DNA of 64,000 bases from Diphasiastrum complanatum. Taxonomy: Eukaryota > Streptophyta > Lycopodiopsida > Lycopodiales > Lycopodiaceae. The stretch spans positions 36,244,361 to 36,308,360 of the forward strand of contig CM055106.1 in assembly GCA_029204225.1 (NCBI GenBank), written 5' to 3'. How positions within the stretch are numbered: the first letter of the stretch is position 1; each line of letters starts with the position of its first letter. Made by a program: the position numbers and the translations under genes. The notes under the pieces were generated by a model. That model was given only the letters and a program-made list of their open reading frames with translations, made no database searches and was not told the DNA's origin. Shown in pieces: positions 12,690 through 57,238 of this stretch.

Positions 12690-15600
12690 ATGTCATCCAT
12701 GGGTGGATATTTGATGGAACCAAGTGAGAGACTCACTTCCACAAATTATTCCATTTGGAAAGTGAGAATGGAATCACTCCTAGTGATCCATGATCTATAT
12801 GACATAGTTCAAGGAGTAGAGGAAGAGCCTCAAACTCCCCAAGAACAAGCCAAATACAAGAAGAGAGCAAGATTAGCTCTACATTGCATAAAGTTAAATG
12901 TATGCAATGACCTCTTGAAAGAGGTGTCTTCTTGTACCTCATCCAAAGAGGCTTGGGATTCATTAAAGAGCATTTATGAATCCAACAATACTTCAAGAAT
13001 CCTCATGCTAAGAAATCAAGTTTTCCAAAGCATGAAAGGAAGTGGAGAGAGTGGACAAGAGTATGTTCTTAGGATCAAATCTCTTAACAAGGAGTTAAGT
13101 GCAATAGGAGAGAAGATCCAAGATCAAGAACTAGTACAAATCATTTTGAATGGTCTAAGTGATGAGTTTACCAACTTAGTCCAATCATTTGCCATTCAAG
13201 ACTCTCTTCCATCCATTGAAAAGTTGCACAATGTTCTTGTGGCCGAGGAGAGTAGGCTTCTACACCTCAAGACAAGAATGGATAGCATGTCACTTAATGG
13301 AGGAGAGGAGAAAGCTAACTTTACATCTAAAGGCAAGAAAAAGCAAAATCCATTCAAGAAAAATCAAGGCAAGGAGGCCGAGATGAAGAATGGAGGATCT
13401 ACCTCCAAAGGCAAAGTGAAGAACAAGGCAAAACTAAAGTGTTTCTTTTGTGGAAAGAAAGGACACTTTGCCTCAGAATGCTACTTGAAGAAGAATCAAC
13501 AAGCCAAAGGAGATCAAGGGAACATTGCTCAAGAGGAAGAATATGAGGATGGATTCAACACATCCTTAATGGTTGCATCTACACCAACTTCAAGTCAAGA
13601 CACATGGTGGATAGATAGTGGGGCTAGTTCCCACATGTCCTTTAACAAGCATTATTTTTCTACTCTTCTATCTTGTAATGACTCTAAGAAGTCAATATAC
13701 ACTGCTAGTGATCAAGCATGCAAGATAGATGGCATAGGATCTATACCTCTTTGTTTAGGCACATCTAAAAGGATAGATCTAGATAATGTTTTGTATGTTC
13801 CTACCATTTCAAGAAACTTGCTTAGTGTAGGACAATTAATGGACAATGGACTAGATGTACATTTCAAGAATGGAGTTTGTTCCATCTTGAAAAATGATAA
13901 GTGCATAGCTAGTGGCATTAAGCAAGGTAGACTTTTCAAGTTGGATGCTAATGTTGCAAGTGAAAGTGTGAACTTGGCTAGGGAGGAGCTAACTCAAGTG
14001 GAGCTTTGGCATAAGAGATTAGGCCATCCTAATCTTCAATCTATGGAGTCAATGGCAAGCAAGGAACTAGCTCTCGGCCTAGCAAGAGCTTTCAAGAAGT
14101 GTGGAAAAATGTGTGAGGCATGTGGCCTTGCAAATTCACACAAATCTTCTTACAAGAAATCTTCATCAAGATCTCTCTCTCCCTTGGATCTCATACATTC
14201 TGATGTACATAGTTTTTCACATGCAAGTAATGGAGGTGCCTTGATGTATGTAACTTTTATAGATGATTGTACTAGATTCACATGGATTGAGTTACTATCA
14301 AAGAAAAATCTTGTTTATGAAGCTTTCATTAAGTTCAAGTCTCTAGTAGAGAAACAACTTAGTACTTCTATCAAAGCACTAAGATGTGATAATGGAGGAG
14401 AGTACACCTCCAATAAAATGAAAGACTTTTGTGAGATCAATGGTATTAAGTTACAATACACTTGTTCCTACACCCCTCAACAAAATGGGGTGGCCGAGAG
14501 GAAAAATAGGAGTCTATGTGAGTGTGCAAAGTCCTTGAGGCTTGATGCATCACTTCCCATCTCATTTTGGGGAGAAGCCATAACATGTGCTAATTATTTG
14601 TGTAATAGACTTCCTAGTAGTGCTATAGATGGGATCTCACCTTATCAAGCCTTGTTTGATAAGAAACCCAATGTAAAATATTTTAAGATCTTTGGATGTA
14701 CTTGTTATGTACACATTCCTTTGGAGACTAGAAGGAAAGAAGATGCTACCTCCTTCAAAGGAATCTTTGTTGGCTATGGAGAAAATAGCAAGGGATATAG
14801 GATATATGATCCTACATCCAAGAAAGTAAAGGTAAGCAAGGATGTACTTTTTGATGAGTCACAATTTGCTAAGAGCTTGTCAAATGGATCTAACCCATTG
14901 TGCATTGAAGATCTTGACAAATCCGAGGAGGATCTTGACAAACCCGAGGAGGATCATGACAAACCCGAGGATGGAGATTTGGATCCAAGTCAAAAGGGGC
15001 CAAGAAGATCATCAAGGAGCAAGGCCGAGCCCTCAAGGCTTACCTATGTGGACAAGGGAAAGCAAAAGGAAGGCTCTACATCTTCTACCTCTTACTCTTT
15101 TTTAGCTACATTGATTGAAGAACCATCATCTTTTGAAGAAGCATGTAAATCTAAAGTTTGGAGAGATGCAATGCAAGTAGAGTATGATGCATTAGAAGAA
15201 AATCATACTTGGAATCTTGTAAATCTTCCAAGAGGAAAGAAACCACTTGCATGTAAGTGGATTTATAGAATTAAGTACAATCAAGATGGATCTATTAGTA
15301 AATACAAAGCTAGGCTTGTTGCTAAGGGATTTCTTCAAATAAAAGGATTGGATTATGAAGAAACATTTGCACCTGTAGCTAAGCTTGTAACTATTAGATT
15401 AATCATTTGCATTGCTACTTTGTTCAAATGGGATCTCTACCAAATGGATGTGACAAATGCCTTCTTGAATGGCTTCTTAGAAGAGGAAATCTACATGATG
15501 CAACCCGAGGGCTTCATCAAGATTGGTGAGGAGCAAAAGGTGTGCTACTTAAGGAAGAGCCTATATGGCTTGAAGCAAGCACCTAGAGCTTGGTACTCTA

Positions 15601-16670
15601 GGTTGCATGATTTTCTCTATTCCCTTGGCTTTGTACTAAGTGCTTATGAACCTTCTTTATATTTCAAATGTAATGAAGGAAAGATCATCATTTTGGTTCT
15701 TTATGTTGATGACATCATTATGACAGGAAATGATGATGATGGCATAGGCAAAGTAAAAGTTGACTTATCTAGTGAGTTCAAGATGGTAGATCTAGGCTTC
15801 CTAAAGTTTATACTTGGGATAGAAGTGTCTAGAAGTAGCAATTGTACTTTCATAAGTCAATCTAAGTATGCTACTTCCATTCTTGAAAGATTTGGTATGA
15901 AAGATTGTAAGGGGATTGACACCCCTATGGAGCATGTTGTGAAAGCAACTAATGAAGGTGATGAAGCATCCTTTGAGGACATCACTCTCTTTAGGAAGCT
16001 TATAGGCTCTCTAATCTATTTAACCATCACTAGACCTGACTTAAGTTTTTGTGTAAGCAAGTTGAGTCAAAGTATGCAAGCTCCTTTAATTCATCATTGG
16101 AAAAGTGCCAAGAGAGTACTTAGATATGTTTCTAGTACTAGATTTTTTGGTATACTTTATGAAGGATCTAACTTGCACTTGAGAGCCTACTCGGATTCAG
16201 ATTTTGCAGGTGACAAGATGGATAGGAAGTCCATTAGTGCATTTGCAACATTTCTTTGTGGAGGAGTGATATCTTGGCTTTCCAAAAAGCAAGATACAAT
16301 CTCACTATCTTCTTGTGAAGCCGAGTACAAGGCATTGACTTCAACAACCAAAGAGCTCTTATGGCTAAGAAGACTCTTGATGGAACTACATGTGCTAGAG
16401 GCCGAGGAGATCCCTTACATATTTTGTGACAATCAAGCTTCTCAACAAATTGCTTCAAATCCTATCTTCCATGCTAGAACAAAGCATATTGAGATAGCTC
16501 ACCACTTTGTGAGGGAGAAGGTACAATCCAAGGAAGTGCAACTACATCATGTACCATCATCCGAATGCATAGCTGATATCTTAACCAAACCATTGTCCAA
16601 AGATCCATTTTTTAAGTTAAGATATGCTCTTGGAATTGTAGATAGATGTACACTAGATTTGCCAAGTTAG
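12690..16670 (+). CDS. copia B gag-pol polyprotein, intact
   Basis: A single 1326-residue frame holds every Ty1/copia domain in the order gag, protease, integrase, RT, RNase H. Gag begins MSSMGGYLMEPSERL. The zinc knuckle CFFCGKKGHFASEC lies near residue 250 and the protease WWIDSGASSHM near 305. The integrase zinc part (WHKRLGHPN ... CEACG) lies near 440-480, with core residues in HSDVHSF (about 503), RCDNGGEY (about 565) and NGVAERKNR (about 601). RT shows QMDVTNAFLNGFLEEEIYM (about 918) and the catalytic YVDDI (about 1005). RNase H shows YSDSDFAGDK (about 1167) and SSCEAEYKALT (about 1206). The protein would copy the element RNA and insert the DNA. Length is normal for the superfamily. The start is the first ATG of the frame and aligns with the gag starts of C and E. 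Confidence 0.95.
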   Translation: MSSMGGYLMEPSERLTSTNYSIWKVRMESLLVIHDLYDIVQGVEEEPQTPQEQAKYKKRARLALHCIKLNVCNDLLKEVSSCTSSKEAWDSLKSIYESNNTSRILMLRNQVFQSMKGSGESGQEYVLRIKSLNKELSAIGEKIQDQELVQIILNGLSDEFTNLVQSFAIQDSLPSIEKLHNVLVAEESRLLHLKTRMDSMSLNGGEEKANFTSKGKKKQNPFKKNQGKEAEMKNGGSTSKGKVKNKAKLKCFFCGKKGHFASECYLKKNQQAKGDQGNIAQEEEYEDGFNTSLMVASTPTSSQDTWWIDSGASSHMSFNKHYFSTLLSCNDSKKSIYTASDQACKIDGIGSIPLCLGTSKRIDLDNVLYVPTISRNLLSVGQLMDNGLDVHFKNGVCSILKNDKCIASGIKQGRLFKLDANVASESVNLAREELTQVELWHKRLGHPNLQSMESMASKELALGLARAFKKCGKMCEACGLANSHKSSYKKSSSRSLSPLDLIHSDVHSFSHASNGGALMYVTFIDDCTRFTWIELLSKKNLVYEAFIKFKSLVEKQLSTSIKALRCDNGGEYTSNKMKDFCEINGIKLQYTCSYTPQQNGVAERKNRSLCECAKSLRLDASLPISFWGEAITCANYLCNRLPSSAIDGISPYQALFDKKPNVKYFKIFGCTCYVHIPLETRRKEDATSFKGIFVGYGENSKGYRIYDPTSKKVKVSKDVLFDESQFAKSLSNGSNPLCIEDLDKSEEDLDKPEEDHDKPEDGDLDPSQKGPRRSSRSKAEPSRLTYVDKGKQKEGSTSSTSYSFLATLIEEPSSFEEACKSKVWRDAMQVEYDALEENHTWNLVNLPRGKKPLACKWIYRIKYNQDGSISKYKARLVAKGFLQIKGLDYEETFAPVAKLVTIRLIICIATLFKWDLYQMDVTNAFLNGFLEEEIYMMQPEGFIKIGEEQKVCYLRKSLYGLKQAPRAWYSRLHDFLYSLGFVLSAYEPSLYFKCNEGKIIILVLYVDDIIMTGNDDDGIGKVKVDLSSEFKMVDLGFLKFILGIEVSRSSNCTFISQSKYATSILERFGMKDCKGIDTPMEHVVKATNEGDEASFEDITLFRKLIGSLIYLTITRPDLSFCVSKLSQSMQAPLIHHWKSAKRVLRYVSSTRFFGILYEGSNLHLRAYSDSDFAGDKMDRKSISAFATFLCGGVISWLSKKQDTISLSSCEAEYKALTSTTKELLWLRRLLMELHVLEAEEIPYIFCDNQASQQIASNPIFHARTKHIEIAHHFVREKVQSKEVQLHHVPSSECIADILTKPLSKDPFFKLRYALGIVDRCTLDLPS

Positions 16671-21985: not shown

Positions 21986-22956
21986 TTGGGGGACAAGGAA
22001 ATAATCCTTCTACTACACCACCACCCTCATGCATGGGAGTATCGAAATGGCATGGTGAATGGCTTAAATATCATGATGTTAATATTTTTATGGAATGAAT
22101 CCATTGATGGTATGAAACAGTTGTCTATGTTTCATAAATTACCATATTGGAGGAATTTATTGCAAAATCATTTATTGGATCTTATGCACATATTCAAAAA
22201 TGTCGGTGAATCACTATGGAACCACATCATTGGCATAAAAGACATCTTCGCAGCTCGTAAAGATCTACGAGCGGCCGACGTGAAAAGACCTTATTGGATT
22301 CAATACACTGAAGGTGAAGATGAGATTTTACCTAGCGTGCCATGGATTCTTACAAAAGAGCAACTCTCACATATAAAACATGTCATAAAACAAATGAGAA
22401 CTCCAACATGCTATGCACATTCTTTATGCAAATCATTTACCAATGATGATAAATTAAGTGGATTGAAATCACATGATTGGCACAAGATGTTGCAATTCAT
22501 ACTTCCACTTTCGATTTGAGGTCTTTTCAACGATGATATACTAAATACGCTTTACAATTTATTATCGATGATTAGGTTTGTATATCTTTTTGAACACTTG
22601 TATAAATATGTGCTATTTCAATATTTTTATGTGCTAAATAACCTAATGTTATATCAATTTTCTTGCAGGCGGATTTCCTCAAAAGAACTAAAAAATAGTT
22701 AATTGGATTCCATGAAAATCCAAATGAAATGGTATGTTTGTTGGAAAGAGATTTTCCAGCATTCTTTTTGGATATACAAGTTCACCTTCTAGTGCATTTG
22801 GTCAAAGAAGTATCAATTGCAGGATCTGTGCACACGCGATGGATGTTCTACCTTGAGCGTTTTATGAAAGTTTTGAAGGGCTTTATGAGACAAAAGGCAA
22901 GGCCAAAAAGTAGCGTTGCAAAAAGTGGCAAGCTTTATTTTATATCACTGAAATAA
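21986..22956 (+). pseudogene. CACTA (En/Spm) transposase fragment, TNP2 end plus DUF4218
   Basis: The first part reads LPYWRNLLQNHLLDLMHIFKN, close to the CACTA TNP2 motif with LDVMHIEKNV, then PWILTKEQ and SGLKSHDWHKMLQFILP, which begins DUF4218. A TGA at 22517 replaces an expected Arg. An intron fits well at 22576-22668 (GTTTGT ... TTGCAG, 93 bases); joining the exons gives MIRRISSKEL, matching the family. The second exon shifts frame once and then reads LERDFPAFFLDIQVHLLVHL and VHTRWMFYLERFMKVLKG. The DDE part is missing. No CACTA termini were found. Confidence 0.85.
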
Positions 22957-23194
22957 TCTCACAATTGCATCCTACAAGTCCAAAAATGTGGTGTAAGATT
23001 GCTCGCCGAATTCATCTTGACACAAAAATCTTAATACTATTATCTACAGATCTCCTAATAGAGATCAGGTTTAAACTCCAGTGGTCATTGCAAAATAAGA
23101 TTGAAATTTCTTTAGCTGCAATTCTGAGAACTATTTTTATTGACAATGCTAATGTTAATGCATAAAACAACAAGAAGCATTTAATATATCTTAC
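22957..23194. other. no gene seen
   Basis: Short stretch between the CACTA fragment and the presumed intron of the minus-strand locus at 23.2-24.0 kb. Its minus strand starts with a GTAAGA donor-like sequence at 23194. Confidence 0.4.
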
Positions 23195-23545
23195 ATCACT
23201 GATAGAAGCCCGTCTGTCTTTGAGATTCAAACAATCAAGAACTCTATAATCTATACTAAAATCAAGTTCATCTAATCTAAAACAAAAAGGAGTACCAATT
23301 GTATCTATAGCATCAGATATGTTCTCAAATTTAAGATAATCATCCGAATCTATATATGTATAAAGATTTGAGGGAGGAGGAGGAGGTCAATGTGTAGTAT
23401 CTACAGGAATTGAAGGGGTATCCAAAACAGATGTAGCTATATTTACAATAGTATCAAGAGCAGCGTTATCTACAATTGATTCCGGGTTAGGCTTCACAGA
23501 TTCTGTGGTGTCTACCCTCCTTACTTTCTTCAGAGCTCTCTTGGG
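23195..23545 (-). CDS. C-terminal extension of the H3-like locus (unrecognised)
   Basis: Directly downstream of the histone fold, in the same frame as the N-terminal half of the H3-like protein, is an open stretch starting KQTAPKRALKKVRRVD. It continues through PESIVDNAALDTIVNIATSV, a TGA (about 23384-23386), a proline run (PPPPP), and TYIDSDDYLKFENISDAIDT. It ends at a plausible splice donor GTAAGA at 23194. Histone H3 normally ends right after its last helix, so a tail of more than 100 residues would be unusual. It may be a fused domain, a separate exon, or chance read-through. The peptide DDYLKFENISDAI faintly resembles ESYISFNNIEDVL at 51.55 kb. Confidence 0.35.
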
Positions 23546-23995
23546 TGCTGTCTGCTTCCAGTCCTATCTAGAGGAGTTAGTCTAGGAGCAGCATGCTGAG
23601 ATATGTGCAATTTGCAAAAACTCTCTCTCATTCTCATCAGGAGTTGAAAATCCTTGGGCATTATGGTGACTCTCTTGGAATGGATTGCCAGCAAAAATGA
23701 ATCTTCAAAAAAAAAGACACATGTAATTTTTAGCAGCCTCCTGAAGGCACTGAAGAGCACTGGGTGTGAATCTAACCAGTTGTCCGAGATCATTTCTAGT
23801 TATGTTTTGGACAGCATGGTAGAATGGAGCTCTTGGATTCAACAGAGCGGTTGATCTTTGATACTTGCGTATTTCAGAGAGCCACCTGCTGCGGTTGCGC
23901 GTTCTAGGTCTAGCGAGAGGTGTAATGGCAACCGCCGGAGTTGAGGACGAGCAAGCAGAGAAGAAGTCCCTCCTTGTCTGCTTTCTCCTATCCAT
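23530..23995 (-). pseudogene. divergent histone H3-like protein, copy A (one homopolymer frameshift)
   Basis: The frame starting at 23995 begins MDRRKQTRRDF, comparable to the H3 tail (M-R-KQT-R pattern). It continues with NRSRWLSEIRKYQRSTALL (alpha-N helix), PRAPFYHAVQNITRNDL (alpha-1), VRFTPSALQCLQEAAKNYMC (alpha-2) and FF. After a one-base shift in an A9 run at about 23707-23715 it reads EDSFLLAIHSKRVTIMPKDF and MRMRE (alpha-3). Loop 1 is one residue longer than in canonical H3, as in centromeric variants, and the tail is much shorter than canonical. H3 packages DNA in nucleosomes. Removing one base of the homopolymer would restore a continuous fold, so the shift may be a mutation or a sequence error. 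It is divergently oriented to the gene at 24835. Confidence 0.75.
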
Positions 23996-24012
23996 GGAAG
24001 TGTACTATGGGA

Positions 24013-24812
24013 TAGCGGACTTGTGCGTGACGGCTAGGATGAGTAGGGAAGGATGATAAAGCCCTCGTAGAGGACCGATATGTATGGATAGAATGTACGG
24101 TGTATCGGACCTGTGCGAGCCGAATATAAGAGAGATAGATTAGTATTGAAGGAAGGCGCACAAGTGTGAAATGAGGAGACATGTAGGTATATGTATCGGA
24201 CTTGTGCGCATGGAAGGCGGTAGGAAGAATATCGATTGTGAAGGATGCGCACAAGTGCGATATGCGGAGCGAAAAAAAAAAGTGAAAAAAATTCATCGAA
24301 GTTTGTGATTTTATATCGCAATTTGCACGTGCAAAAGAACATCCTGTCACATGTGTGGGACTTGTACGGTCAAATGCGAGAGCGACATGTGTCACCCTGT
24401 CACTTTACACGTGTAGGATTTGTACAAGCAAATGCGAGAGCGACACGTGTTGTCGAACAAACGAATGAACATGATACATGTGTATAGGTGTCATTTCACA
24501 CATGTCCAGGGTCAACTCACACGTGCCAATGCCTTAGTCCAATTGAAAGTAGACATGTGTCCTTTGACCGTTGACCACACGTGCATAGATTTGGTATAAG
24601 TGGCACGAAACTCGATTAATTTTTTAGATTTTTTGTTCTCAAAATTCACGGCATATCGCTCTTGTGCACGCGCATTGTTGTCCATTTGTTTGCAACGATA
24701 CCTACTTGCGCACAAGTGCGATATTCGGTATCTACGTGTCATACATATCCCTCTTGTGCGTGATCTTGATAGTTAGTTGTTTCAGTTATCCCTCGCACAC
24801 AAGTGCGATATC
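24013..24812. promoter_or_regulatory. divergent intergenic region with repeated TATCGSACTTGTGCG motif
   Basis: Between the H3-like start (23995) and the plus-strand start at 24835 the motif TATCG(G/C)ACTTGTGCG or its complement CGCACAAGTGCGATA occurs, exactly or with a few changes, about nine times: near 24013, 24103, 24156, 24194, 24247, 24654, 24718, 24746 and 24794. A 58-bp tandem pair containing CAAATGCGAGAGCGACA starts at 24371 and 24429. Occurrence in both orientations between two divergent genes suggests a shared regulatory region; this function is an inference. Confidence 0.5.
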
Positions 24813-24834
24813 TACGTTACTTCCATGGCCTCTT

Positions 24835-25338
24835 CCTCAGGATCCTCACGAGATTCAGGCTTGAGTTCATTTCTTAGTGAATTTGGGATTACTGAAAATC
24901 TAGACTACTTCCACAACCTATTCAGGCCATATCTACATGTTTTCAAGACTGCACAATCAAATTTTGACGTATTTTATGAACATTATGTTAGATTCGGAGA
25001 TATCTGTTTTCTCCATAGGTTCACTCCAGTACATGCATTATGCTGATCTTGTTCATTTCTTTCCAGCTTTCAGACATAGACTAGATAGAATGTTCACCAA
25101 ATTGTTTGATCTTTTCAAAAGTAGTTCAATGTGTCCTTATTGCAACAAGAAATGTCAATTGGTAGAATATCAAAGTGGTTTCGTACTTTTCCTGTTATTT
25201 CAGATTCCAGATGATGAGAAAGTTTCTGTTGCTGACCCTCCTTCTGCATCATTTTCTGTTCAGTCAGCTATTAAGGATATCAGTCACTTCCTTATCGACA
25301 CTCTTGATAGTTTATCCAGAGACGAGTGTGCCTCATAG
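24835..25338 (+). CDS. unrecognised 'LDYF' gene, copy 1 (frame break or intron)
   Basis: The ATG at 24835 opens MASSSGSSRDSGLSSFLSEF, then GITENLDYFHNLF and, near 25010, DICFLHRF. The frame then changes, by a frameshift or a short intron near 25015-25040, and continues with YADLVHFFPAFRHRLDRMF, FKSSSMCPYCNKKCQL (a possible CxxC zinc site) and QIPDDEKVSVADPPSASF, ending at 25338. The minus-strand frame at 52197 shares the pattern FLxxxxIxxxLDYFxxxF and a later CFxHF. No known domain was recognised. It is transcribed away from the H3-like gene. Confidence 0.45.
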
Positions 25339-25578
25339 CTAAAACTCATTATCTATGGAATCTCTCCTGTTCTAAAAAGTTTCTGATTTGCTTATCATAT
25401 TATACCTCTGATTTGCCTATGTTCTAAAATGTTCAAAACATAAGATCTTTTGACAAAAATGATCTTATTTGTCTTAACAAATTTATGTCCTCCTAGGTAA
25501 AATGATAAAGCTTTAACTGCCATTATAAGACTCTCCCCAACTGGGCTCACTTGGAATGAGCAACACAAATTTCATTTT
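25339..25578. other. no gene seen
   Basis: AT-rich gap between the convergent ends of the gene at 24835 and the minus-strand gene at 25579. Confidence 0.4.
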
Positions 25579-27093
25579 TCAAGAAATGCCTAAGATAGTG
25601 GCCAAGTCCACTATCTCTCTGGAACGAGGATGCATGTTGTCTGAAACCACCTGCACATTTTTCAAGGGGATAGGCAGCACATGCTTCCAGTTTGGATCTG
25701 CATATTCTCTAGTAATTCCTGTACTCCTAGTTACATCTTTTGCTATTTTCATGCAGTACAAACAAGGGCGTTTTGATGTAGCATCGTGAGAGACATTATA
25801 CATACATTTCAATGTTTTCAAATCACCTGCTAAGTGCCATTCAACATTGAAGTCTCCAACTCCTAGAACATTGAGAAGTTCTCCATCCATATGGTCAAGG
25901 ATAAGGTGTCCTTGAGAATATCCATGATAATATATCATGATCCTCCTTCAGCTCCTTTCCAAAGAATTAGTCAGACTTAGTTTACAATGAATTAATACTA
26001 TTCAATGAATGTAATGTAATAATGAGGCTACTTACCTAAAACGCTGCCAACCACCATATATCATTTTCTGACTAGACATTGAATCTGAAATCTTCTTGGT
26101 TCTCTGTTTGTGATAGGGCACCATTCATGAGAGTTATACTAATCCTCTCCATCTTCTGCCCTTTCACAATTTCGGACTCATCTAACTTAAGTACTATGAT
26201 TATTTTGCCATTCACCTTTTCATAGGTTATATCATAGAATGTGACGATGTATCTCAGCAAGTTATTTAGATCAGCAAATAAGTTGTTTCCATCAGTTTCA
26301 TGCACCTCCTCAATATGAAATGGAGTTCCAGTGATCTTATGCATACCTATGTTTAATGTATCCCTCTCTTTCTTCAAGTGATATGTCCTAGGGATTGGGA
26401 CTTTTCTAATTTGAACTTGCTTAAAAGCTTCTCTAATTAGTTTAAGTTGCATATGCTTCCATGCTTATACTTGCAGAATCATAAGCACCCTGAACTATAG
26501 TCTTATCTAGAATTTTTTGAATGTCCACCATCAAAGACTCTGCTATTTTACACTTTACATTTGAACTCCTATTGTTCATCATGATACACCCAGTGGATTT
26601 GCAAGTCAATATTGTGCCCAATGACATTCCTAGTGAGACATTGTCTTTAATATTCCGAGGAGCTACTAATGCAAATCTGCAAAAAAAATAGCGTTTGAAT
26701 ATCCTTGCAACTTTGTCGCTTTCGCTTCTTACTTTTAGCCTTCTTCTTTGCCAAATCCACATCCTTCAATAATTGTAAGTTTTCAATACGAATAGACTGT
26801 AAGACTGATTGCATTTGCTCTAGTATTGATTTGATATTGATTGTTATCTTCTGTAATGATTCATTATTTTTTTTAAGTTGTTTATTTTCTTCTAACATCT
26901 TTTGGAGATGACAATCTCTATTCTGACAATAAGAGAATATCCGAATTAACTCACCTTCTAAGAAGTGAACTTTATTCATATAAAGTTGTTTTCCATGGTT
27001 TCGCAATCTTTCACAATATCCTAGTAATCCACTATGCCCATTGCATATCCATGTAACTAAATGAGTTATTGAAGAGAATGTGGGATGAGTCAA
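25579..27093 (-). CDS. putative DDE-transposase-like gene, probably spliced or decayed
   Basis: In minus-strand order: a coiled-coil stretch with a basic KKKAKSKKRKRQ (27093-26647); APRNIKDNVSLGMSLGTIL (26700-26600); TGTPFHIEEV and KIIIVLKLDESEIVKGQKME (26380-26120); then WHLAGDLKTLKCMYNVSHDA, RPCLYCMK, and VLPIPLKNVQVVSDNMHPRS followed by REIVDL (25870-25580). The series LKLD, GDLK about 14 residues before CxxC, and IPLxNVxxDxxH is remembered from a family of transposase-like proteins in many eukaryotes. The Asp in LKLD and GDLK could be two DDE residues, with CxxC after the second as in several superfamilies. The third acidic residue was not located. Segments lie in different frames, so introns or shifts are needed. 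Confidence 0.4.
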
Positions 27094-27473
27094 AGTGCTT
27101 GGATCTTGTGGATATTATGTTCCATCTATCCACAAATCCAAGTGTTTTTTTTTCCTTCTGCCCTGTAACAAGAACGATCCTCAATAGATATTTGAATTCC
27201 TTTGCCTCCGAAGTTGATCTAGTTTGTCTTGTTTTGGTGAAATATTTGAGACCTATCTCAAATTCAGTTGCAAGATTTTGCATAGGATTTGGTAGTACAC
27301 CCAATTGTTTTGGTTCCTATAGTAAAAAAGAAGCAACACACTCAATTCCTATAGTGAGAAGTGTAGCAACATTTAGTTTATTTGGAGCAAGCTCAAACAT
27401 ATTGTTGTCCAATTTACAAGAAGTCTTCACATTCATGGCATCTATAGGAGATTTTCTCTTTGAAAAACAATAA
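27094..27473 (-). CDS. unrecognised open region, possible upstream exon(s) of the DDE-like gene
   Basis: A minus-strand frame with one stop (about 27319) reads KRKSPIDAMNVKTSCKLDNN, then MFELAPNKLNVATLLTIGIE, then NPMQNLATEFEIGLKYFTKT, and TLGFVDRWNIIS. It has the feel of real coding sequence but matches no family recalled. It could be an exon of the 25.6-27.1 kb gene or a separate fragment. Confidence 0.3.
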
Positions 27474-29272: not shown

Positions 29273-30319
29273 CTAAAGGCCTCCTTGATGAATGAGTATA
29301 ATCATGATCCATGAGCTTGGATCATCCTTCCTTCTTGTTTCCAAGGGAATATATGCAAAGCAAGCACTACCAAGTTCACTAAGGTGATCAACCTTAGGCT
29401 TCATCTTGAATAAAACTTCATATGGTGCTATTCCTTCAAAAGCTCCAATACTCCTCAAAGCTTTGATCTTCAATGAGAATTTCTTCTCAACATATGCTTT
29501 GAATAATAAGGAATAATCATACACCATAATACTTGAAGAGAGAAGATATGTGCATCTTGTGTAATCCTCCTCCTTTGAAATATTGGAAATATAAGAAACA
29601 TCAAGAGAGTTTGCACTCTCACTTGGATCCAATTTGTAGATGCCTTCAAATCTTGATCCGTATGCAAGGATCTCACCATCCTTCTTAATCACACAATTGT
29701 CAATATTGAAATTGACATCAAAGCCACTATCAAGAAGTTGGCCAACACTTAAGATGTTCTTTGTAAGCTTTGGGACAAAAAGAACATTGTTGAGAAAGAG
29801 ATCTTTAGAAGATGCAAGCTTCAAGGGAATAATCCCTACTCCTTCAATATTGCACTCATGCTTACTTGCAAAGTATATGGTCTTCTTGACTCCATCATAA
29901 GGCATAATAGATGAAAAAAAGTGCTTGGAGCCACACATATGTGAAGATGCTCCACTATCAATATACCATGAGTCATCCTTGTTGAAGGTGGAAGAGGAGA
30001 AGCTTGATGCCATAAGAGAGCCTTCTCCATCACTTGCAATATAGTCTTCTTTCTCATCGGTGATGTTGGCTTGATTGAGTTGATTCTTCTTCTTGAAGCA
30101 ATTGGTGGCATAATGGCCTTTCTTGCCACAATAAAAGCACTTGATCATCTTCTTCTTGAGATTTGAATTATAAGCATGAGAGGTATCCTCCTCCTCTCCA
30201 TCTTGGTCTTTAGCTTTGTCATTAGAGAAGTGATGGTGTTGCTTCTTACTCCTCTCTTTGTGCTTGGCAAATAGAACTTTGCCATCATCATGATTGAGTG
30301 ATAGCTTGTCCATCCTCAA
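29273..30319 (-). pseudogene. copia C gag end, protease and deleted integrase
   Basis: The 348-residue frame carries the zinc knuckle CFYCGKKGHYATNC and the protease WYIDSGASSHMCGSKHFF. After KNILSVGQLLDSGFDV and a short pre-integrase part, it jumps from the integrase core (FKAYVEKKFSLKIKALRS) straight to APYEVLFKMKPKVDHL. The central integrase with the second Asp and the Glu is therefore deleted. It lies in the same frame as the upstream gag, separated by one TAA near 30341. Confidence 0.85.
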
Positions 30320-32594: not shown

Positions 32595-33490
32595 TTCATA
32601 TTATTCTGATGGGTATAAGGTTGAGAAAAAATTCTTTTCACAAGACATGTGGGAGCTAGCTCCACTACCAATCCACCAAGCGTCTCTTGAATTGCTATTG
32701 CTTGTTGGTGAGGATGTGGATGCCATCAAGAATACATCAACTTCATCCTCCTCCCCCTCATGTCCAAGGTTTCCTTGTTTATCCTCCTCCACTTGTGCTC
32801 TTAGCCTCTTTAACATTCGGATGCATAATGCCCCTTCTTTCCACAAAAGAAGCATTTTTGCTTTGACTTGTTCTTTGAGTTTGATGCATCATCCTCTTCT
32901 TTGGCCTCCTTTTAATGCTTCTTTTTTTCATTGGTCTTCTTTTTGCCCTGGAATGAGAAATTGGCTTTCTCATCTCCATCCTGCAAGGACAATGAACTCA
33001 TTCTTGCCTTGATGTGAAGCATATTACACTCTTCAGCCACTAATACACCGTGAAGTTTTTCTATAGTTGGCAACATGTCTTGGATGGCAAAACTTTGGAC
33101 CAAATTTGCAAAGTCATCTCCTAGACCACTAAGGACAATTTGTACAAGCTCTCCATCTTTAATCTTCTTTCCATTGGAAGCCAACTCCCTATTTAGAGAC
33201 TGGATTCTAAGCACATAATCCTGTGCACTCTCCTCACTTCTCCTCATGCTTTCCAAAATTTGATTTCTAAGCATAAGAACTCTAGAAGTGTTGCTAGATT
33301 TATAGATTAATTTTAAAGACTCCCAAGCCTCTTTAACACTTGTACATAATGATACTTCCATCAAAAGATCATTGCTTACATTCATTTTAATACAATGAAG
33401 TGCAAACCTAGATCTCTTCTTATATCTCACTAATTTATGTGCACCTAGAGGTTCATTTTCTTCTAGAGGTATGCTCCAATAGATCACATC
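32595..33490 (-). pseudogene. copia fragment D: gag and protease start
   Basis: Minus-strand frames encode a gag from YKKRSRFALHCIKMNVSNDL (33440) through SRVLMLRNQILESMRR and LVQIVLSGLGDDFANLVQSF, to a zinc knuckle of which CFCGKKG-like remains are seen in shifted frames near 32850. The protease motif then reads WWIGSGASSHM: the catalytic Asp of DSG is Gly. The gag N-terminus (the SIWKVRMESLL part) and everything after the protease are missing. It closely resembles the fragment at 19690-20197. It may have been part of a larger element into which E later inserted. Confidence 0.75.
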
Positions 33491-34557: not shown

Positions 34558-37500
34558 CTAGCTTGGTTCAATCATTGCTTTACTAATCACTCCAAGTGAT
34601 GATCTGAACTTCATAAAAGGTGTCTTTTGAAGTGGTTTAGTAAGTAGATCAGCTACACATTCATTTCTTGGAACATGCTCCAAAGCAATCTCCTTGGCTT
34701 GCACCATTTCTCTCACAAAGTGATGGCATATCTCAATGTGCTTAGATCTTGCATGGAAGATTGGGTTAGATGCAAGGTGTTGGGCTGATATATTGTCATT
34801 GTAGATGATTGGTGCCTCCTCTGAATCCATGATCTTTAGTTCCACCAATAATCTCTTGATCCAAAGTACCTCCTTTGTAGTGGTTGTCAAAGCTTTGTAC
34901 TCGGCCTCGGTTGAAGATAGAGATATAGTTTCTTGCTTTTTTGAAAGCCATGAAACCACACCTTCTCCTATGAAAGTTGAATAGGCACTTGTTGATTTCC
35001 TATCCCTCTTGTCCCCTGCAAAATCTGAATCACTAAATGCAGGAAGGTTAATCACATCTCCTCTATATAGAATCCCAAAATCCAATGTACCCGAGATGTA
35101 TCTTAGAATCCTCTTAGCCTTTTTCCAATGGATATTCAATGGCTTTTGCATGGATTGGCTCAACCTACATACACTAAAGCTGAGATCTGGTCTAGTTATA
35201 GTGATCCACATTAAGGAACCTATAATTTGCCTAAACAAAGTGATGTCCATGAAGGATCTTTCACCATCTTCATTTGGCACTTTTACATCTTGCTCCATTG
35301 GTGTGTCAACACTTTTGCATACTTCCATCTTAAACTTCTTCAAAAGACTTTGAGCATAGTTTACTTGACTTATAAAGATAAAATCAGACCCTCTAAGTAC
35401 TTCTATGCCTAAAATGAAGTGAAGACACCCTAGATCTACCATCTTGAACTCTAAGGATAGATCTATCTTGATTTTTTCAATACCATCAACACTATTTCCA
35501 CTAATGATGATGTCATCTACATAAATGAGTAAAAGTACAATACCAACATCATCAAACTTAATGTAAAGAGTGGGATCATATTCACTTTGAACAAAAGAAA
35601 GTGAAATAAGATAGCAATGTAGTCTTGAATTCCAAGATCTCGAGGCTTGCTTCAAGCCATAGATGCTTCTTTGGAGATGGCATACTTTGTTCTCCATTCC
35701 ATGCTTGATGAACCCTTGTGGCTGCTCCATATAGATATCCTCTTCCAAAAAACCATTCAAGAAAGCATTAGAGACATCCATTTGACATAGAATCCATCCA
35801 AAATGTGATGCAAGTGCAATGATTAGTCTTATTGTGACCATCTTGGCCACGGGTGCAAAAGTTTCCTCATAGTCTATCCCTCTCTCTTGAGCATAACCTT
35901 TTGCAACTAGTCTTGCTTTATGTTTGTTAACACTCCCATTTGCATTCAACTTAAGCTTGAAGACCCACTTGCATCCTATTACATTCCTTTGAGGTCTCTC
36001 AACAAGCAACCAAGTTTCATTCTCAATCAAGGCATCATACTCATCCAACATAGCTTTATACCATTCTTTGGAGTTCAATGCAACTTCAACATTAGACGGT
36101 TCTTCAAAACTAGATAAAGCATAAGAAGTGGATGAGATACCCTCAACTTGCTGTCCTTTGCCTTGATATGTGAGCCTTGATGGCTCCACTTTTGCCCTTG
36201 AAGATCTCCTTGGTGTGATAGGTGGGTTTGGTGCTTGCTCCTCCATGAGCTCCTCCTCAAAACCAAGATCTTGCTCCTCGGCCATCTTCTTCTTCATTGT
36301 TGGAGCACTTGAGCCTTCTTCAAGCATATGCATATGATGTTCATCAAAGATGACATCCCTTGAAACAACAAATTTGTTCAAGGATGGGAGATAGACTTTG
36401 TAGCCCTTGCTTGAGCTTGCATATCCAAGCATGATCCCTCTTGTGGAAGATGGATCCTCCTTGGTTCTTGTTTCCAATGGCACATGCACATAACATATAC
36501 ACCCAAAAAATTTCAAGTGATTAAGATTGGGTTTCTTTCCATACAACATCTCATAAGGAGTTTTGCCTTCAATGGCTTTGCAAGGCACCCTATTCATCAA
36601 GTAGTTTGCACATACAAGAGACTCACCCCAAAAGGATTTGGGCAAACAAGCATCTAATCTTAAAGCCTTAGAACATTCACATAATGTTCTATTCCTTCTT
36701 TCAGCAACTCCATTTTGTTGAGGAATGTAAGGACAAGAAGTCTCTTTCTTGATCCCTTCCTCCTCACAAAAGGCCTTGAACTCATTGGAGATGAATTCTC
36801 CACCATTGTCACTTCTAAGAATCTTGATGCTATGATTATGATGCTTTTCCACAAATAGCTTGAACTTTACAAAAGTATCAAATACTTGAGACTTGAAGGA
36901 AAGTAAGAACACCCAACAATATCTTGAGTAGTCATCAATGAAGGTTAAAAACATGGATGAACCTCCATTATATTTGGTGCTAGCAATGTGCACATCCGAG
37001 TGTATGAGTTCAAGAGGATGAGATGACTTTGTGATGGAGTTAGGAAACACCTTCTTATGTGCCTTGGATAAGGCACAAGCTTCACAAACCTTGTCTTCCT
37101 TCCCAATAGACCTTGGTAGGCCTAAAGCATACTCCTCCTTGATCATAGCCTCCGTGGAACCCGAGTTGACATGTCCAAGTCTTTTGTGCCATAAAGTAAA
37201 GGTAGATATCTTGCTCTTCTCGTCCAACATGACGACATTAGTATCCAAAAATGCATCCAGCTTATAAAGTTTGCCAAGTCTAGTGCCCTTAGCCACTATC
37301 TTACCCTTCTTCTTGATGAAACATTCATTTGAAGCAAAGTCAACATTGAAACCATTGTCTACCATTTGGCCAACACTTAGTAGATTCTTTGTTATTGTAG
37401 GAATGTACAAAACACCTTCTATGTTGATCTTTTTGGAAGATCCTAAGCAAAGGGGAATGCTACCAACTCCTTCAATCTTACAAGCTTCATCACTTGCTGT

Positions 37501-47724: not shown

Positions 47725-48210
47725 TCTGTAAAATTGGAAAAGTTCTTAGATTTATTTTCTAAGTGTTTTAGACCTAGGATGAATTTTCTTCATGACCCCA
47801 AAATGCAGACTGTGCGAAACCTAGTTCAAAATGCACAGTTGCAAAAAGACAGCAAAGGAAAAACTAAGGAAAAATGCTAAGGCTTTGAAAGATACAAACT
47901 CTTGGTTTCTTCAGCTCCCTCTCAAAGCTGGTATTTTTCTGATTCCTAAGCTTGCGTGTTGCACAGATTAAGTTACAAGTCCAAGATTGCAATGCAAACT
48001 TAATATTAGTTGACCGTGTGTAGTACAAAAATCAATCACTTGTATTAGAAAAGCATTTCGCACTTGCCATTGTTTTATTTAGTTTTGTTTGCTCAAAGAC
48101 AATAGCCATGTGGCATATTGTGAATCGTACATTTGCATTAAAATGGAAGGTTAAGTTTAAATTAACCAATGGTATAGAGGAAAGGTTTGTGTATGTGACT
48201 TTCTATGTGG

Positions 48211-49675: not shown

Positions 49676-49962
<287 letters not shown>

Positions 49963-51292: not shown

Positions 51293-52197
51293 CTACATTT
51301 CCGGAGGGGATATACCGAGTCCTTGGGAGATATTTTTTTTGGAATTCCAAAATTCCTCCTCTATAGGCAAAGTTTTTTCATAGGCTTTAGATTTTTCAAT
51401 CATGGCCTCCAAGGCCTCATTGCTAGATTTCCAATTGCCATCTTTATCATAGTCTATCTCACTTTCAAGGTCATCATATGTGTAATCAACAATGTCAAAA
51501 AAATTTGATAGATTTTGTGCAAAAATTGGGAGGATTTCATCCTCTCTCAAATTTTAAAACATCTTCGATATTATTAAATGAAATATAACTCTCATTATTT
51601 ACAAAATATATGGGAATATCGAGTAGAGTTAATTGATTAACAGGAGATGCAGATGGATGAAAATCAAAGAGGATTATAGAACAAGAGAGAGTTTTCTGAT
51701 AATCTGAAGCCGTAGATACTTCAGCTTCAATCCCTCTATCAGTATCTGTATCATCTAAATCAACTGGAGCATATGCAGATGCTTCAATCATTGGAACAAT
51801 AGAAGATTCAACAAATCTGAAATTTTAGTAGATATGTAAAAGAAAAAAGCCATTCCTTTTATTAGAAGACGACATATTCTTTTGTGGATACCACAATATA
51901 TATTTCTTTTGAAATGATCATGCAGGTTAGAGTACTTTTTATTGTGATTATGCTTAGAGGATGGTTGGGAATAAACAAGGTCTTGAAAATGAACAAAACA
52001 AAAACTATCTATATCCTGAACATGAGTACTAATAATTTGAGAAAAAATATCAAGAAGAGAAAGTAAATTATAACGATTCTCATAAACTAGCTTATCGATA
52101 TTGAAAGGTGCAAAAAAATACTGAAAAAATAATCTAATTTTTTAGATGGAATGTCATTGGCATTCAAAAAATCTAGAAGTTTGTCATATGAGGACAT
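51293..52197 (-). CDS. unrecognised 'LDYF' gene, copy 2 (frame breaks)
   Basis: The minus-strand ATG at 52197 starts MSSYDKLLDFLNANDIPSKK and LDYFFSIF, aligning with FLSEFGITENLDYFHNLF of copy 1. A one-base frame change near 52120 leads to VYENRYNLLSLLDIFSQI and DSFCFVHFQDLV, parallel to DICFLHRF in copy 1. After a possible acceptor TTTCAG (about 51827) comes VESSIVPMIEASAYAPVDLD, IYFVNNESYISFNNIEDVL, then a further frame change near 51540 and an acidic segment (DIVDYTYDDLESEIDYDKDG). The gene diverges from the H3-like copy B at 53975. No known domain. Confidence 0.45.
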
Positions 52198-52221
52198 GGA
52201 GGAACTAGCTATATTGAACCT

Positions 52222-52413
52222 GATATCGGTTCAACGCAATTGAATGATTTCGGTCAAGGACTGAACAACAGTGCATGCGTTGATCCGATATCGTTTTGAC
52301 AAGACTGAAATTTTTTGGACGAGCACACGTCAAAAGAGGCTGATATCGTTTATGCGCGCCTGAATGAATCCGACCGTGCACTGTAGGCGAAGGTGCACGT
52401 CGATTCGATATCG
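52222..52413. repeat. GATATCG repeats, 120-bp dimer upstream of LDYF copy 2
   Basis: GATATCG occurs at 52222, 52287, 52342 and 52407, i.e. two units 120 bases apart with sites spaced 65, 55 and 65. Units share CTGATATCG followed by GCG-rich and TGAATGA-type stretches. It lies just upstream of the minus-strand start at 52197, so a promoter role is likely but inferred. Confidence 0.7.
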
Positions 52414-52959
52414 TGAGAGAGAAAGAAAACAAAAAGACGGAGTTCAGAATAAAAGATCACGGAATCGAAATATTGATCACAGCCATACATTTGTCAAATA
52501 GTGAATTGAGGACTGCGGCCTATATTTATCCACTAATCAGAGTGAGACATATTTGTACCTCCACCGAAATACATTAGATAGTCTATCACTAGATTCTCCG
52601 AATCATCATTAGCACTGATCCTAAGATTTGTGCCTACACCAGAATACATTAAATAGTCTATCACTACTCTCTCCGAATCATCATTAGCCCTGACCATAAA
52701 ATTCTCCGATATCATAAAACAAATATTAAAAATATTAAATGGACATCATTGAAAAACGTGTATGAGAGCAATTATTACAGACTCTCGTCCTATTTAAGCA
52801 TCGTAAAGACGAATTTTTTTTTTTTGAGATAATTTTTCATTCAGTAAGACGGAACATTTTAAAAGAGCCAATATCTCGATCCACACGAGAGGAGAAGTGC
52901 TTCACCGGAACAGATCAAATAGTGCGCGTTGATGAGATACTCCAATATGGCGAATTGGT

Positions 52960-53450
52960 TATCGGATCAACGCGCTCATCACAAAAAAAAAAAAATTCAA
53001 CTTGGACTTTGTACTGTGATTCGCTATTAGAATGCATTATGAATAATCAAAGCTTGCTTCTGGAGATTCCACATACATCCAAAGCTAAAAGTTTGTCAAA
53101 GCAAGCTTTGATGGTTCATAATGCATCACAATATACTTTCAGTGTGTCTCAGATATCAGATCAGCGCGTCTGGTAGAAGAAAAAAAAATTTCACTTGGAC
53201 TATGCACGTCGAATCGTTATTGCAGGAAAAAAAGATTTTTGAAAATTGTCAAAATTATTGGATTGTATTTAAAATGATCAAAGCTTGCTTTAAAAGATTC
53301 TTCATACAGTCCAAAGCTAAATAGAGTCTATCGAGGCAGCTTTGATCATTCATAGTGCCCTCCAATATCGGTTCAGCTCATGAGAATAACCTCTCTAGTT
53401 TACACATGCAGTATATGTGCATCGATTTGCTATTGGATGAAATAATGGTC
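52960..53450. repeat. about 200-bp tandem repeats upstream of H3-like copy B
   Basis: Units begin TATCGGATCAACGCG (52960), TATCAGATCAGCGCG (53154) and TATCGGTTCAGC (53366). The first two share an A-rich run, CACTTGGACT or CAACTTGGACT, ATCAAAGCTTGCTT, and TCCAAAGCTAAA in the same order; the third is partial. Related TATCGG motifs recur at about 53877 and 53909, close to the H3-like start. The phrase GATTCGCTATT(G/A)GA also recurs near 53020, 53435 and 53957. Confidence 0.75.
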
Positions 53451-53974
53451 ATTGTAATTTTTCGAAATTATGATGATTGGATATTAAAGAAGGTTAGATG
53501 TTCATAGCATAACCTTGTCAATTTCAGAAATTAATTGTAGATGTGACCATACGTTTCCATATTTACATTACCATGAGTTTTCATCATTACGGTCGTCATT
53601 AGCCATATCGACTAATCATTTTAATAATCGATGGATATTTAATTGGATTTGATTGACAAGTCTCTGAATATCTCGAAGTAATGATCACTGTAGTTCTAGC
53701 CTCTAAATTTTAAACCATCATTATGCAATCATTTTAGATTTGTACTACATGTACAAATGGACTACGCTTAAATTTTTTTTGCCTAAAGTTCCTATCATTC
53801 TCTACCTCCATGCGGTATCGATTTAGCACGCCTACTTGTTTGTTTTTACTCATGCGCGCCCATCCGCTCTCAGATATCGGTTTGGTTTTGGTTCAAGTAT
53901 CGGTTCGACGCGTTCAACCTGAATTCTGATCTTATGTCCACCTTGCTCGCGCGCTGATTCGCTATTGGATAGTA

Positions 53975-54447
53975 ATGGCGCGGACTAAGCAAACATCATG
54001 AATCCACCCTGGTGGAATCCCAATCATAGGAGGAGGTCAGAGAAATCTTCCACCACTGTCTTGTCCACCACCACCTCTCCTAGGTCAAGGGGCATATGAA
54101 AAGACCCTCCCTGGCTGAAGGATATTCGAAAGCTATAGAAGACCAATAATCTTTTGATTCCAAAAGCTCACATACAAAGATCCATTAGATAGGTTACAAG
54201 AAGTCTATCTGTAGATGTGAGATGGACTGTATCGACAATTGAGGCATTGCACACTGCATATGAGGATTTCCAAGTGAAATTTTTTTCAAATAGTGTTGTT
54301 GCAGCTGTCCATGCCAAGAGAGTGACAATCATGCCCAAGGAATTCATCGTTATGTTCAAGGTACGGGACACATATGACAAATTTGTTGAGTACTTCAGAC
54401 CAGCCCCGTCCTCTCCTCGAAAACAAGATACAGAGAAAAACAAATGA
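53975..54447 (+). pseudogene. divergent histone H3-like protein, copy B (stops and one frameshift)
   Basis: The ATG at 53975 starts MARTKQTS followed by TGA; the first seven residues are the exact H3 N terminus. In the +1 frame from 53998 a basic Ser/Thr-rich tail follows (HRRRSEKSSTTVLSTTTSPR). Then come PPWLKDIRKL-stop-KTNNLL, IPKAHIQRSIR-stop-VTRS, VRWTVSTIEALHTAYEDFQV and VAAVHAKRVTIMPKEF. The fold aligns with H3 without gaps from the alpha-N helix to alpha-3. The two TAG codons lie where H3 has Gln and Glu. The VRWT at the start of alpha-2 recalls centromeric H3 variants, but loop 1 has canonical length. WLKDIRK parallels WLSEIRK of copy A. It is a pseudogene as read. Confidence 0.75.
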
Positions 54448-54800
54448 AAGCAATCTCAACCATCCCGACTTGCTTTTTGAGTAAAGAGCGGGAGTGTTTC
54501 AAAGAAGAAGAGGTATCATGAAAACCCCCTAATAAAGCAAGAGATTTTTCAAAGCCTTCTCCTCTGCATGAGATTCTAACGGCTCGACAATCTCCTCCTA
54601 AGTCTCCTTCTTCTCTTCCTTGATGTCAATCTCCATCTTCTCCTCCTAAATTTTTCTCTCCTAATAAATCTCCTCCTCCATCAAAATCTCAGTCTCCTCT
54701 TACCCTCACAAATATTAGTTTCCCTCCTCCAGTTTCAAAAAAGGATTTAGATGATTTTGTAAATTCAAAGGTCGAATCAAGTTTGAATGACAATTCTTTG
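54448..54800 (+). CDS. Ser/Pro-rich open stretch after H3-like copy B
   Basis: In another frame from about 54528 the sequence reads KARDFSKPSPLHEILTARQS, PPKSPSSLP, a stop, SPSSPPKFFSPNKSPPPSKS, and LTNISFPPPVSKKDLDDFVN. The repeated SPxK/SPP pattern resembles basic DNA-binding tails in composition only. It may be a C-terminal extension of the H3-like protein, as at 23.2-23.5 kb, or a separate exon. No known domain. Confidence 0.3.
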
Positions 54801-56295: not shown

Positions 56296-57238
56296 TCATA
56301 TGGCATAACGTACTTTTACACCATTCAATCGAAATTGATAGTACCGAGGTAGATCAAATTGCAATATGTATAGTTCTGATCGAATGTGATTGAGACACCA
56401 ATCCTCCTTGACCTCAACCATTGCAAAAATGTTGTCATTTTTTCTCACTGTTATTTGAAGTTGCTCTTGAGGATTTATTCCAAAATCTTGATCAAGTGGC
56501 TTCCAAACATTTTTGCACTTAAGACATCTTCTATAATACAGCAGCAAAGTGAGCATTTGTTTTTCGATGTGATATCTAAATGTCATTGATGAGTAACATA
56601 CTCTGCACTCAACTTGCTGATTTTGTTTCATATCCCAACCAGCATCCAACAACTCGACGATTATTTTAGCACTCAAGTCCTTACAAATAAACATTGTGTT
56701 CGTTCTCCGAACATTTCATTTGGAAAAAAAAATCAACAAAAATAGTAAAAGATAGATACCAACTTAATTTATTATTCTTTGATCCAGTGCTACATTTTAA
56801 TATACTCTGAATATCAACATATAGTCTAGATTGAAAACTTTTTGAAATTGTTGCATTAGGAAAAATCCATTCCTCATCTGGTAGAGGATATGGCTCTAAT
56901 TTACCAACCAAACCATTTTTATCATAGGTGTGATCATAAAAGAAAACTCTTGACTCTAAAAGTGATTTTGGAAAACGACCTTTATATTGAAAAATATCGA
57001 TATCTGAATGTATGACATCGATTATTCCTATAATTGATTGAACTATTTGCCGTTCAACAAAATTTAATGGATACAAATCTGCAAAACCAACAAAAATATT
57101 ACAAGAAAATTTTTAAAATGATAACTCTAAAGAAATTATATCTGAAAACTTACAATTGCATTTTCTTCTATCATTTGGATTCAAATCATGAATGTTGAGC
57201 TCATTGTGAAGATAAACATGTTGAACTAAAACTTCCAT
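56296..57238 (-). CDS. unrecognised three-exon gene model
   Basis: Exon 1 runs from the ATG at 57238 to 57154 (MEVLVQHVYLHNELNIHDLN) and ends at GTAAGT. The acceptor TTTTGCAG opens exon 2 at 57079-56760 (YPLNFVERQIVQSIIGIIDV, KLEPYPLPDEEWIFP), in frame. Exon 3 (56704-56296) carries CRVCYSS and CLKCKNVW, a likely four-Cys zinc site, and WCLNHIRSELYILQF before ending VKVRYAI. The second junction (donor GTATCT, only 55 bases to the acceptor) would create TGA, so either the boundary differs or the gene is damaged. No domain was recognised. Confidence 0.4.

Follow-up and report, generated by a model that had tools for sequence, protein, structure and literature searches.

Two divergent gene pairs in a 64,000-nucleotide stretch of the genome of the lycopod Diphasiastrum complanatum (hereafter the window; contig CM055106.1, on scaffold C15 of the 1.74 Gb assembly), each consisting of a histone H3-like gene and a partner gene marked by an LDYF motif, are almost certainly decayed copies of one group of DNA transposons of about 9 kb that is dispersed in the genome and carries four genes, here called G, H (histone H3-like), L (LDYF partner) and T (transposase-like). 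Taken as a whole, our reading, namely a DNA transposon group with an H3 variant that lacks lysine 9 (K9) and may counteract silencing, stands about an even chance of being correct. The two pairs, A and B, and the other features of the group in the window are the following.

22998..27209, minus strand: fragment A of a family-1 element (blastn of the window against the complete elements L017 and L028, 82-94% identity)
23195..23995, minus strand: H (A), histone H3-like gene extended at its C-terminus, frame-broken (PF00125; tblastn to intact family-1 H, 62% over amino acids 1-267)
23996..24824, no strand: H/L spacer (A), dense in GCACAAGTGCGATAT-like sites (9 of 11 window matches inside)
24825..25338, plus strand: L (A), LDYF partner gene with a broken frame (84-87% identity to intact family-1 L by tblastn)
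25642..27150, minus strand: T (A), fragments of the transposase-like gene (tblastn 69-88% to T1a/T1b, 43% to T2a)
51296..52197, minus strand: L (B), family-3 LDYF partner gene, frame-broken (tblastn/blastp to family-1 L)
52198..53974, no strand: H/L spacer (B), dense in TATCGGATCAACGCG-like sites (8 of 8 window matches inside)
53975..54800, plus strand: H (B), family-3 histone H3-like gene, broken (PF00125, E 2.9e-9; 3' limit approximate)
56299..57112, minus strand: G (B), orphan gene, the fourth in the element (49% and 44% identity with family-1 G by blastp)
32699..33300, plus strand: empty target site in Copia-like DNA (its relative at locus L028 holds a complete family-1 element between the homologues of 32998/32999)

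The original prediction had placed an H3-like gene on the minus strand head to head with a plus-strand partner in pair A, and the reverse in pair B. The first arrangement is borne out by the coordinates and by matches of H (A) to PF00125 (Pfam Histone; E 1.4e-11 and 4.4e-7, in two reading frames), and the second by the PF00125 match of H (B) together with tblastn. The tail of H (A) starts with MDRRKQTRRD, and H (B) reads MARTKQTS before a stop, with its histone fold at 54112-54444. All four genes, H (A), L (A), H (B) and L (B), are broken by frame changes or stops. Fragment A has lost its terminal repeats and contains an inversion at 25424-25652, and one of its edges abuts a CACTA remnant. This remnant, of TNP2 type, lies at 21986-22953 on the plus strand (DUF4218, E 1.2e-19) and adjoins the broken edge of the fragment at 22998.

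The two partner genes had also been claimed to be related. Aligned directly, by tblastn within the window, L (A) and L (B) show a weak match (E 4e-5, 27% identity over 66 amino acids). Since intact genomic copies align with both and so serve as intermediates, their kinship can be regarded as settled: one intact genomic copy of L is 84-87% identical to L (A) and 27-37% identical to L (B), and L (B) matches family-1 L in two stretches, of 27% and 37% identity, with E values of 4e-5 to 9e-5. Full-length L proteins of families 1 and 2 have an alignment identity of about 24%.

The genome was first searched with the histone family. Out of 6325 first-look candidates the top 150 were scored, and 153 matches are reported. 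Among the matches listed, 13 are ordinary H3 genes at about 164 bits and the remainder are diverged H3-like sequences at 83-110 bits, many of them in open frames of at least 300 amino acids. Twenty loci of 10 kb each, picked by histone score and a long stop-free frame (with the near-duplicates L010/L021, L011/L013, L018/L019 and L009/L012 among them), hold the gene G in 18 cases, L in 16 and T in 14, in the recurring order G-H-L-T. When an intact L protein was used as the query, there were 8914 first-look candidates, and the 137 matches scored have identities of 87-100%. Counting head-to-head pairs within 2 kb, the genome-wide check suggested together with the original prediction, was done on a sample of 20 of these 137 matches, spread over the list and read for 2.1 kb upstream: H stands head to head with L in 14 of the 20, or in 15 if one place with the start region only is included.

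Comparison of the loci revealed a sharp common edge on the G side that starts with CATTAG in families 1 and 2, and three loci could be extended to complete elements, which are 8681, 9305 and 8955 bp long. These elements (L017 and L028 of family 1, L020 of family 2) are bounded by CATTAG..CTAATG at both ends, and the first 30 nucleotides match the inverted other end at 30, 27 and 28 of 30 positions. Allowing up to 3 mismatches, the family-1 ends match the genome 2464 times (1195+1269) and the family-2 ends 2020 times (1008+1012), while the reversed control patterns of both gave 0 matches at the same threshold. Shorter pairs with the same ends, 2.6 and 1.1 kb long, were also found, as expected of deletion derivatives. 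No terminal ends were found for family 3, no family-1 or family-2 ends occur in the window at up to 8 mismatches, and the whole elements contain no exact 10-mers repeated five or more times. The 100 exact family-1 end matches listed include 54 that fall at 64.9-66.7 and 95.0-99.9 Mb of scaffold C1 (101.6 Mb), in clusters that are possibly centromeric or heterochromatic; the same stretches hold 6 of the 36 family-2 matches on C1.

The element inserts without target-site duplication. Among 13 end pairs the flanks share 3 bp in two, 2 bp in one and a single base in five, with no consistent duplication. When the joined flanks of L028 are compared with window positions 32699-33300, 600 nucleotides align at 88% identity, the junction is gapless and the 10 bases on either side of it are identical; this was the only junction-spanning alignment obtained when the joined 300+300 flanks of the 13 elements were compared with the sequence. 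For the element at C1:48368841-48378291, one of the two with an apparent 3-bp duplication, the joined flanks matched 21 places, two being the element's own flanks, and in eight of these places the full 80-base query spans exactly 80 genomic bases (94-98% identity), which leaves no room for a duplication. The 3-bp duplication suggested by two of the 13 flank pairs is thus ruled out by the gapless empty sites of one of these two. For a third element, whose flanks have one base in common, matches are contiguous across the junction (positions 34-80), and the left flank switches repeat type just before; the joined flanks of a fourth matched only the element itself, giving no empty site. Around neither pair did a scan for CAC...GTG inverted repeats with 3-bp duplications yield anything useful. 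Mobility, which had been put forward as one of two possible backgrounds of the pairs, is in this way established by the terminal repeats, by the counts of ends in the genome against none in the control, and by the empty sites.

The copies fall into three diverged families: family 1, to which pair A belongs, family 2, and family 3, represented in the window by pair B. In family 1 the genes G and H point towards each other, as do L and T (G-> <-H L-> <-T), so that H and L stand head to head, in all 6 loci that hold both, and G, H and L of pair B are arranged in the same way. Family-3 H has at least 150 scored genome matches at 69-100% identity, including the window itself (69-82% besides itself), and family-3 G (query 56299-56715) likewise at least 150 at 83-100%, again including the window. 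For 19 of the 150 H matches listed, a G match lies within 10 kb, and 16 H-G pairs, the window being one, are convergent with G downstream, against 0.26 expected by chance placement.

By its core fold, H of families 1 and 2 is closest to histone H3. Family-1 H matches PF00125 at E 4.2e-27, with weaker matches to CENP-T and CENP-S below the cut-offs, and the best PDB matches have E values of 1.8e-22 (family 1) and 2.5e-27 (family 2). The nearest structures are ordinary H3, and the best 60 PDB matches for both families are all named H3 or histone-domain protein. Identity of the fold to host-type H3 is 54% for both family 1 and family 2 and 37-40% for family 3, and among themselves the folds of the three families are only 32-47% alike. 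In five aligned sequences R69, R83, H113, K115, R116, V117, T118, P121, K122 and D123 are kept and K79 is lost.

The tail is altered. Across 33 tails (6 of family 1, 10 of family 2 and that of H (A), together with 11 from L-selected copies and 5 of family 3), position 9 is occupied by D 26 times, by G 6 times and by I once, and never by K. Three host H3 genes that were read have a normal tail (MARTKQTARKSTGG...), so the loss of K9 belongs to the element. The stretch K4-Q5-T6 occurs in all three families, an observation that yields no rate of KQT within a family since the tail pattern demanded KQT for all but the family-3 tails, one of which reads KQI. ARTKQTAR is present exactly or with 1-2 changes in copies of families 2 and 3, the remaining tail being unlike H3, and the family-1 equivalent is DRRKQTRR. 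No ARKS motif was seen by eye in the longer H tails read. The canonical set of modifiable H3 tail lysines (K4, K9, K27 and K36) is thus not present as such, the context of K4 being what is kept.

The ratio of nonsynonymous to synonymous substitution rates (dN/dS) was obtained by Nei-Gojobori counting on pairs that are not independent of each other. Between two subgroups of family 1, the pooled dN/dS of the H fold is 0.14 (10 pairs) at a synonymous divergence (dS) of 0.48, and in the same comparison with the L-selected copies, picked whatever the state of their histone, it is 0.17 (26 pairs, range 0.08-0.45). The corresponding values for the C-terminal extension of H are 0.50 and 0.44, and L, G and T give 0.43-0.63 between the subgroups. 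Judged by these ratios, the H fold appears to be under purifying selection between the family-1 subgroups, and the overall pattern is probably that of a gene kept functional during the spread of the element and decaying after insertion. A connection with chromatin, the other background proposed for the pairs, is supported to the extent that H is a true relative of histone H3 that has been subject to such selection. Several H copies (L034, L038, L040 and the window at 23700-23719, a T-run in A) lose their frame near one place before EDSF, and three sampled H copies have an identical 110-amino-acid open frame, which may reflect a shared old mutation, a hot spot or an assembly error.

In families 1 and 2, an alignment read by eye shows a series of motifs in T: IKLDE and DLKTL, both acidic, then C-x2-C and H-x4-H, the last followed directly by a conserved E. 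Judging from these motifs, which are as in the clade of CACTA, Transib and RAG1, T is very probably a DDE-type transposase. The N-terminal part of G may resemble BAH domains, a likeness that Pfam does not support. Downstream of L in one complete element, on the same (minus) strand, a 172-amino-acid open frame (L017:2437-2955) is perhaps a further exon of L; the part of the element near it lies inverted next to T (A), at 25424-25652.

The spacer between H and L is rich in short repeats. For pair A, 9 of the 11 window matches to GCACAAGTGCGATAT with up to 3 mismatches fall inside the 829-bp spacer (1.04 expected in the whole window), and for pair B all 8 window matches to TATCGGATCAACGCG at the same threshold fall inside the spacer (0.43 expected in the whole window); because both patterns were chosen from these very spacers, the counts describe clustering and are no blind test. 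Complete family-1 elements have 12 of 16 and 15 of 17 loose matches within the H/L spacer (positions read by eye), and the family-2 element L020 has two loose matches in total. As the spacer repeats are degenerate, looser words were used as well: counts of 8-letter words reach 11-12 in three family-1 spacers and the window-A spacer, against maxima of 7-9 in 30 shuffles, and 13 in the window-B spacer, which is not above its shuffle maximum of 16.

From these features, a mechanism can be proposed in which T would move the element and H would pair with H4 and enter nucleosomes, the pairing with H4 being suggested because H113, K115, R116, P121, K122 and D123 are kept. L, perhaps with G, may be a partner specific to the element, a DNA-binding protein or a chaperone, which recruits H to the spacer repeats, where H would be built into nucleosomes with K4 remaining available. 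Because H has no K9 and, in the longer tails, no K27-like ARKS site, K9 and K27 methylation by the host could not mark such nucleosomes; the divergent H/L promoter would then stay open and drive both H and L, and the element would escape host silencing. Anti-silencing by a K9-less H3 variant, deduced from the sequence, is a tentative proposal with appreciably less than an even chance of being right. Its most specific form is doubtful: a transposon with its own K4-retaining, K9-less H3 and a dedicated partner, which together would make a sequence-targeted anti-silencing nucleosome on the element's own promoter repeats, possibly within a new duplication-free superfamily. The suggestion that each pair forms a functional module is backed, as far as the module goes, by selection and gene order; that H and L act jointly is what we infer.

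A number of observations weigh against this interpretation. The head-to-head order, which the original prediction described for both pairs, holds in family 1 and in pair B and fails in family 2, where the layout is G-> H-> <-L <-T and H and L are tail to tail in 10 of 10 loci holding both. Three loci depart from the usual orientation of T, which is inverted wholly in L014 and L023 and partly in L016, and L024 has a short piece of T on its G side. L is an orphan with no Pfam, PDB or PHROG match over the cut-off, and so is G with respect to Pfam and PHROG; for T, no Pfam match exceeds the cut-off, PDB sequences give no match and PHROG gives only a weak one (E 0.17), and a T profile found no match among the CACTA TNP2 transposases of this genome, in a comparison of very thin alignments. 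In H, the five aligned sequences have lost R63 (to P, in one to L), which we take to be a DNA-contacting arginine, and the family-2 KQT stretch follows MSEE, so that it is N-terminal only if translation starts at the second methionine. Constraint is slight among young copies, where the H fold gives a dN/dS of 0.60 (78 pairs) and 0.70 (65 pairs), and within family 2, whose genes give 0.36-0.83, and only 2 of 20 L-selected copies have a KQT-start frame of more than 300 amino acids. The repeat signal of the family-2 spacer is weak (11 8-letter words, against a shuffle maximum of 11).

Several other explanations of the histone were considered. H might serve transposition rather than oppose silencing, by wrapping or marking the element's repeats, by steering integration or as a DNA-packaging subunit of the transposition complex. 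This would agree with the fact that H is accompanied by T in the first two families and by G in the third, with the preserved H3-H4 interface residues and with the clustering of family-1 ends on C1, which could reflect targeting; we nevertheless consider it unlikely, as the repeats sit between H and L and not beside the ends, where transposases usually bind, and as family 2 is less clustered in the same C1 stretches, which may be old heterochromatin. Passive capture of a host H3 gene by a DNA transposon that then multiplied it without function is disfavoured and rather improbable, given purifying selection across subgroups at a dS of about 0.5 and the persistence of H in three families whose folds have diverged so far and in which gene order recurs, even though most sampled H copies are broken, the ratios of young copies reach 0.6-0.7 and there is a precedent in fungal hAT elements (PMC6710886, PMC3538342). 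Quite improbable, too, is a role of the tail as a decoy, in which A-R-T-K-Q-T-A-R would bind K4 readers or an LSD1-type demethylase and titrate or recruit them outside nucleosomes: the near-intact ARTKQTAR (0-2 changes) in copies of families 2 and 3, within a tail otherwise unlike H3, speaks for it, but the strongest constraint is on the fold (0.14-0.17, against 0.44-0.50 for the extension), which a pure decoy would not need, and the family-1 stretch is DRRKQTRR.

Two further readings concern the nature of the mobile unit. The orphan genes, and the presence of a histone gene in an insert of high copy number, could point to a large histone-encoding DNA virus, of which the copies would be endogenous pieces. 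This is very improbable: the units are about 9 kb long with matching inverted repeats, the empty sites contradict a virus as the unit of mobility, and none of the proteins tested was recognised as viral. That the pairs are cargo of CACTA transposons was the first idea, raised by the TNP2 remnant near H (A) with its DUF4218 match and by the frequency of TNP2 in this genome, and it was dropped when complete elements proved to have ends of their own and no TNP2. It is refuted for the three complete copies examined, in which no similarity to the TNP2 queries was found at E values up to 0.1; fragment A starts at 22998, just beyond the remnant, and the element's own ends and lack of duplication are unlike CACTA. 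For the group as a whole this origin can be virtually dismissed.

As far as the literature searched goes, which was thin in subscription papers and did not extend to a comparison with Repbase, the transposon group is new; H3-carrying transposons were met there in fungi only, and the phrase transposon-encoded histone was absent. The fungal cases are hAT DNA transposons with an H3-like gene, found in Pyrenophora tritici-repentis as H3L (PMC3538342) and in Pseudocercospora fijiensis (PMC6710886). These papers describe an inverted-repeat DNA transposon with the H3-like gene beside the transposase, accompanied in Pyrenophora by an open reading frame of unknown function; they report 8-bp duplications in P. 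fijiensis, tens of copies in Pyrenophora and hundreds in P. fijiensis that are inactivated by repeat-induced point mutation (RIP), and their authors read the histone as captured. The present element differs in residing in a plant, in being duplication-free, in having about 2000 end repeats for each of two families, in the selection on the fold and in the loss of K9, and it does not fall among the hAT elements, T having no hAT Pfam match and the duplication being zero.

The Arabidopsis VANDAL transposons encode a protein, VANC, that lifts silencing, and short family-specific motifs are massed in their non-coding DNA (PMC5735166, PMC10398659). Similar to the element described here, these are plant DNA transposons with short motifs in non-coding parts that diverge between families; arrays of this kind were found in family 1 and pair B and are weak in family 2. 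VANDAL/VANC is the closest working model for the proposed mechanism. VANC itself is not known to be a histone, and neither a VANC-type nor another known anti-silencing protein was recognised in Pfam searches of the element's proteins. Fungal transposons with TET/JBP dioxygenases, with gene order conserved in some families, have likewise been proposed to escape silencing, and transposons are known to carry other chromatin genes such as SET besides TET/JBP (PMC12730594); there the factor is an enzyme acting on methylcytosine, here it is a histone.

With respect to the transposase, the CMCT clade (CACTA/Transib/RAG1) is characterised by CA..TG ends, the residues D, D, C(2)C and H(4)H followed by E, and a 2-5 bp duplication (PMC12730594). 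The ends of L017, L028 and L020 are 5'-CA..TG-3' and T of families 1 and 2 has the clade motifs, but the element lacks the duplication of 2-5 bp given for the clade, has no detectable sequence similarity to TNP2, and no profile supports its membership. Spy, of the PHIS superfamily, is a duplication-free DNA transposon that inserts in AAATTT (PMC4482050). The element shares with Spy the lack of a duplication and differs from it in that AAATTT is absent from the three empty sites found here and T has no Pfam transposase match, so that it does not belong there. Lanisha, which we take to be an EnSpm-like lineage from moss, was not among the sequences compared with the element.

If the proposal were true, a transposon would counter silencing by supplying the nucleosome itself, of which no report was found in the literature searched. 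In contrast to the captured H3 of the fungal elements, the histone here appears to have been maintained by selection; the plant transposon that carries it is very abundant, its three families have diverged, and none of the 33 tails read has K9. The group also amounts to a very large natural collection of H3 variants in which the fold is conserved and the tails are altered, and it shows how an element resembling CACTA can integrate, apparently, without any duplication.

The window contains further repeats. Copia-like retrotransposon repeats lie at 12690-16634 and 34591-38526, matching each other, and also at 29273-30319 and 57596-58486, and one such stretch includes the empty site at 32998/32999. 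Very long (CT)n/(GA)n runs occupy 48200-49900, and a similar run is found near G inside the family-2 element (L020, about 2000-2120). Elsewhere in the genome, 22 of the TNP2 (PF02992) places listed crowd into 1.6 Mb of scaffold C1, at 48.6-50.2 Mb, apart from the clusters of the H3 element.

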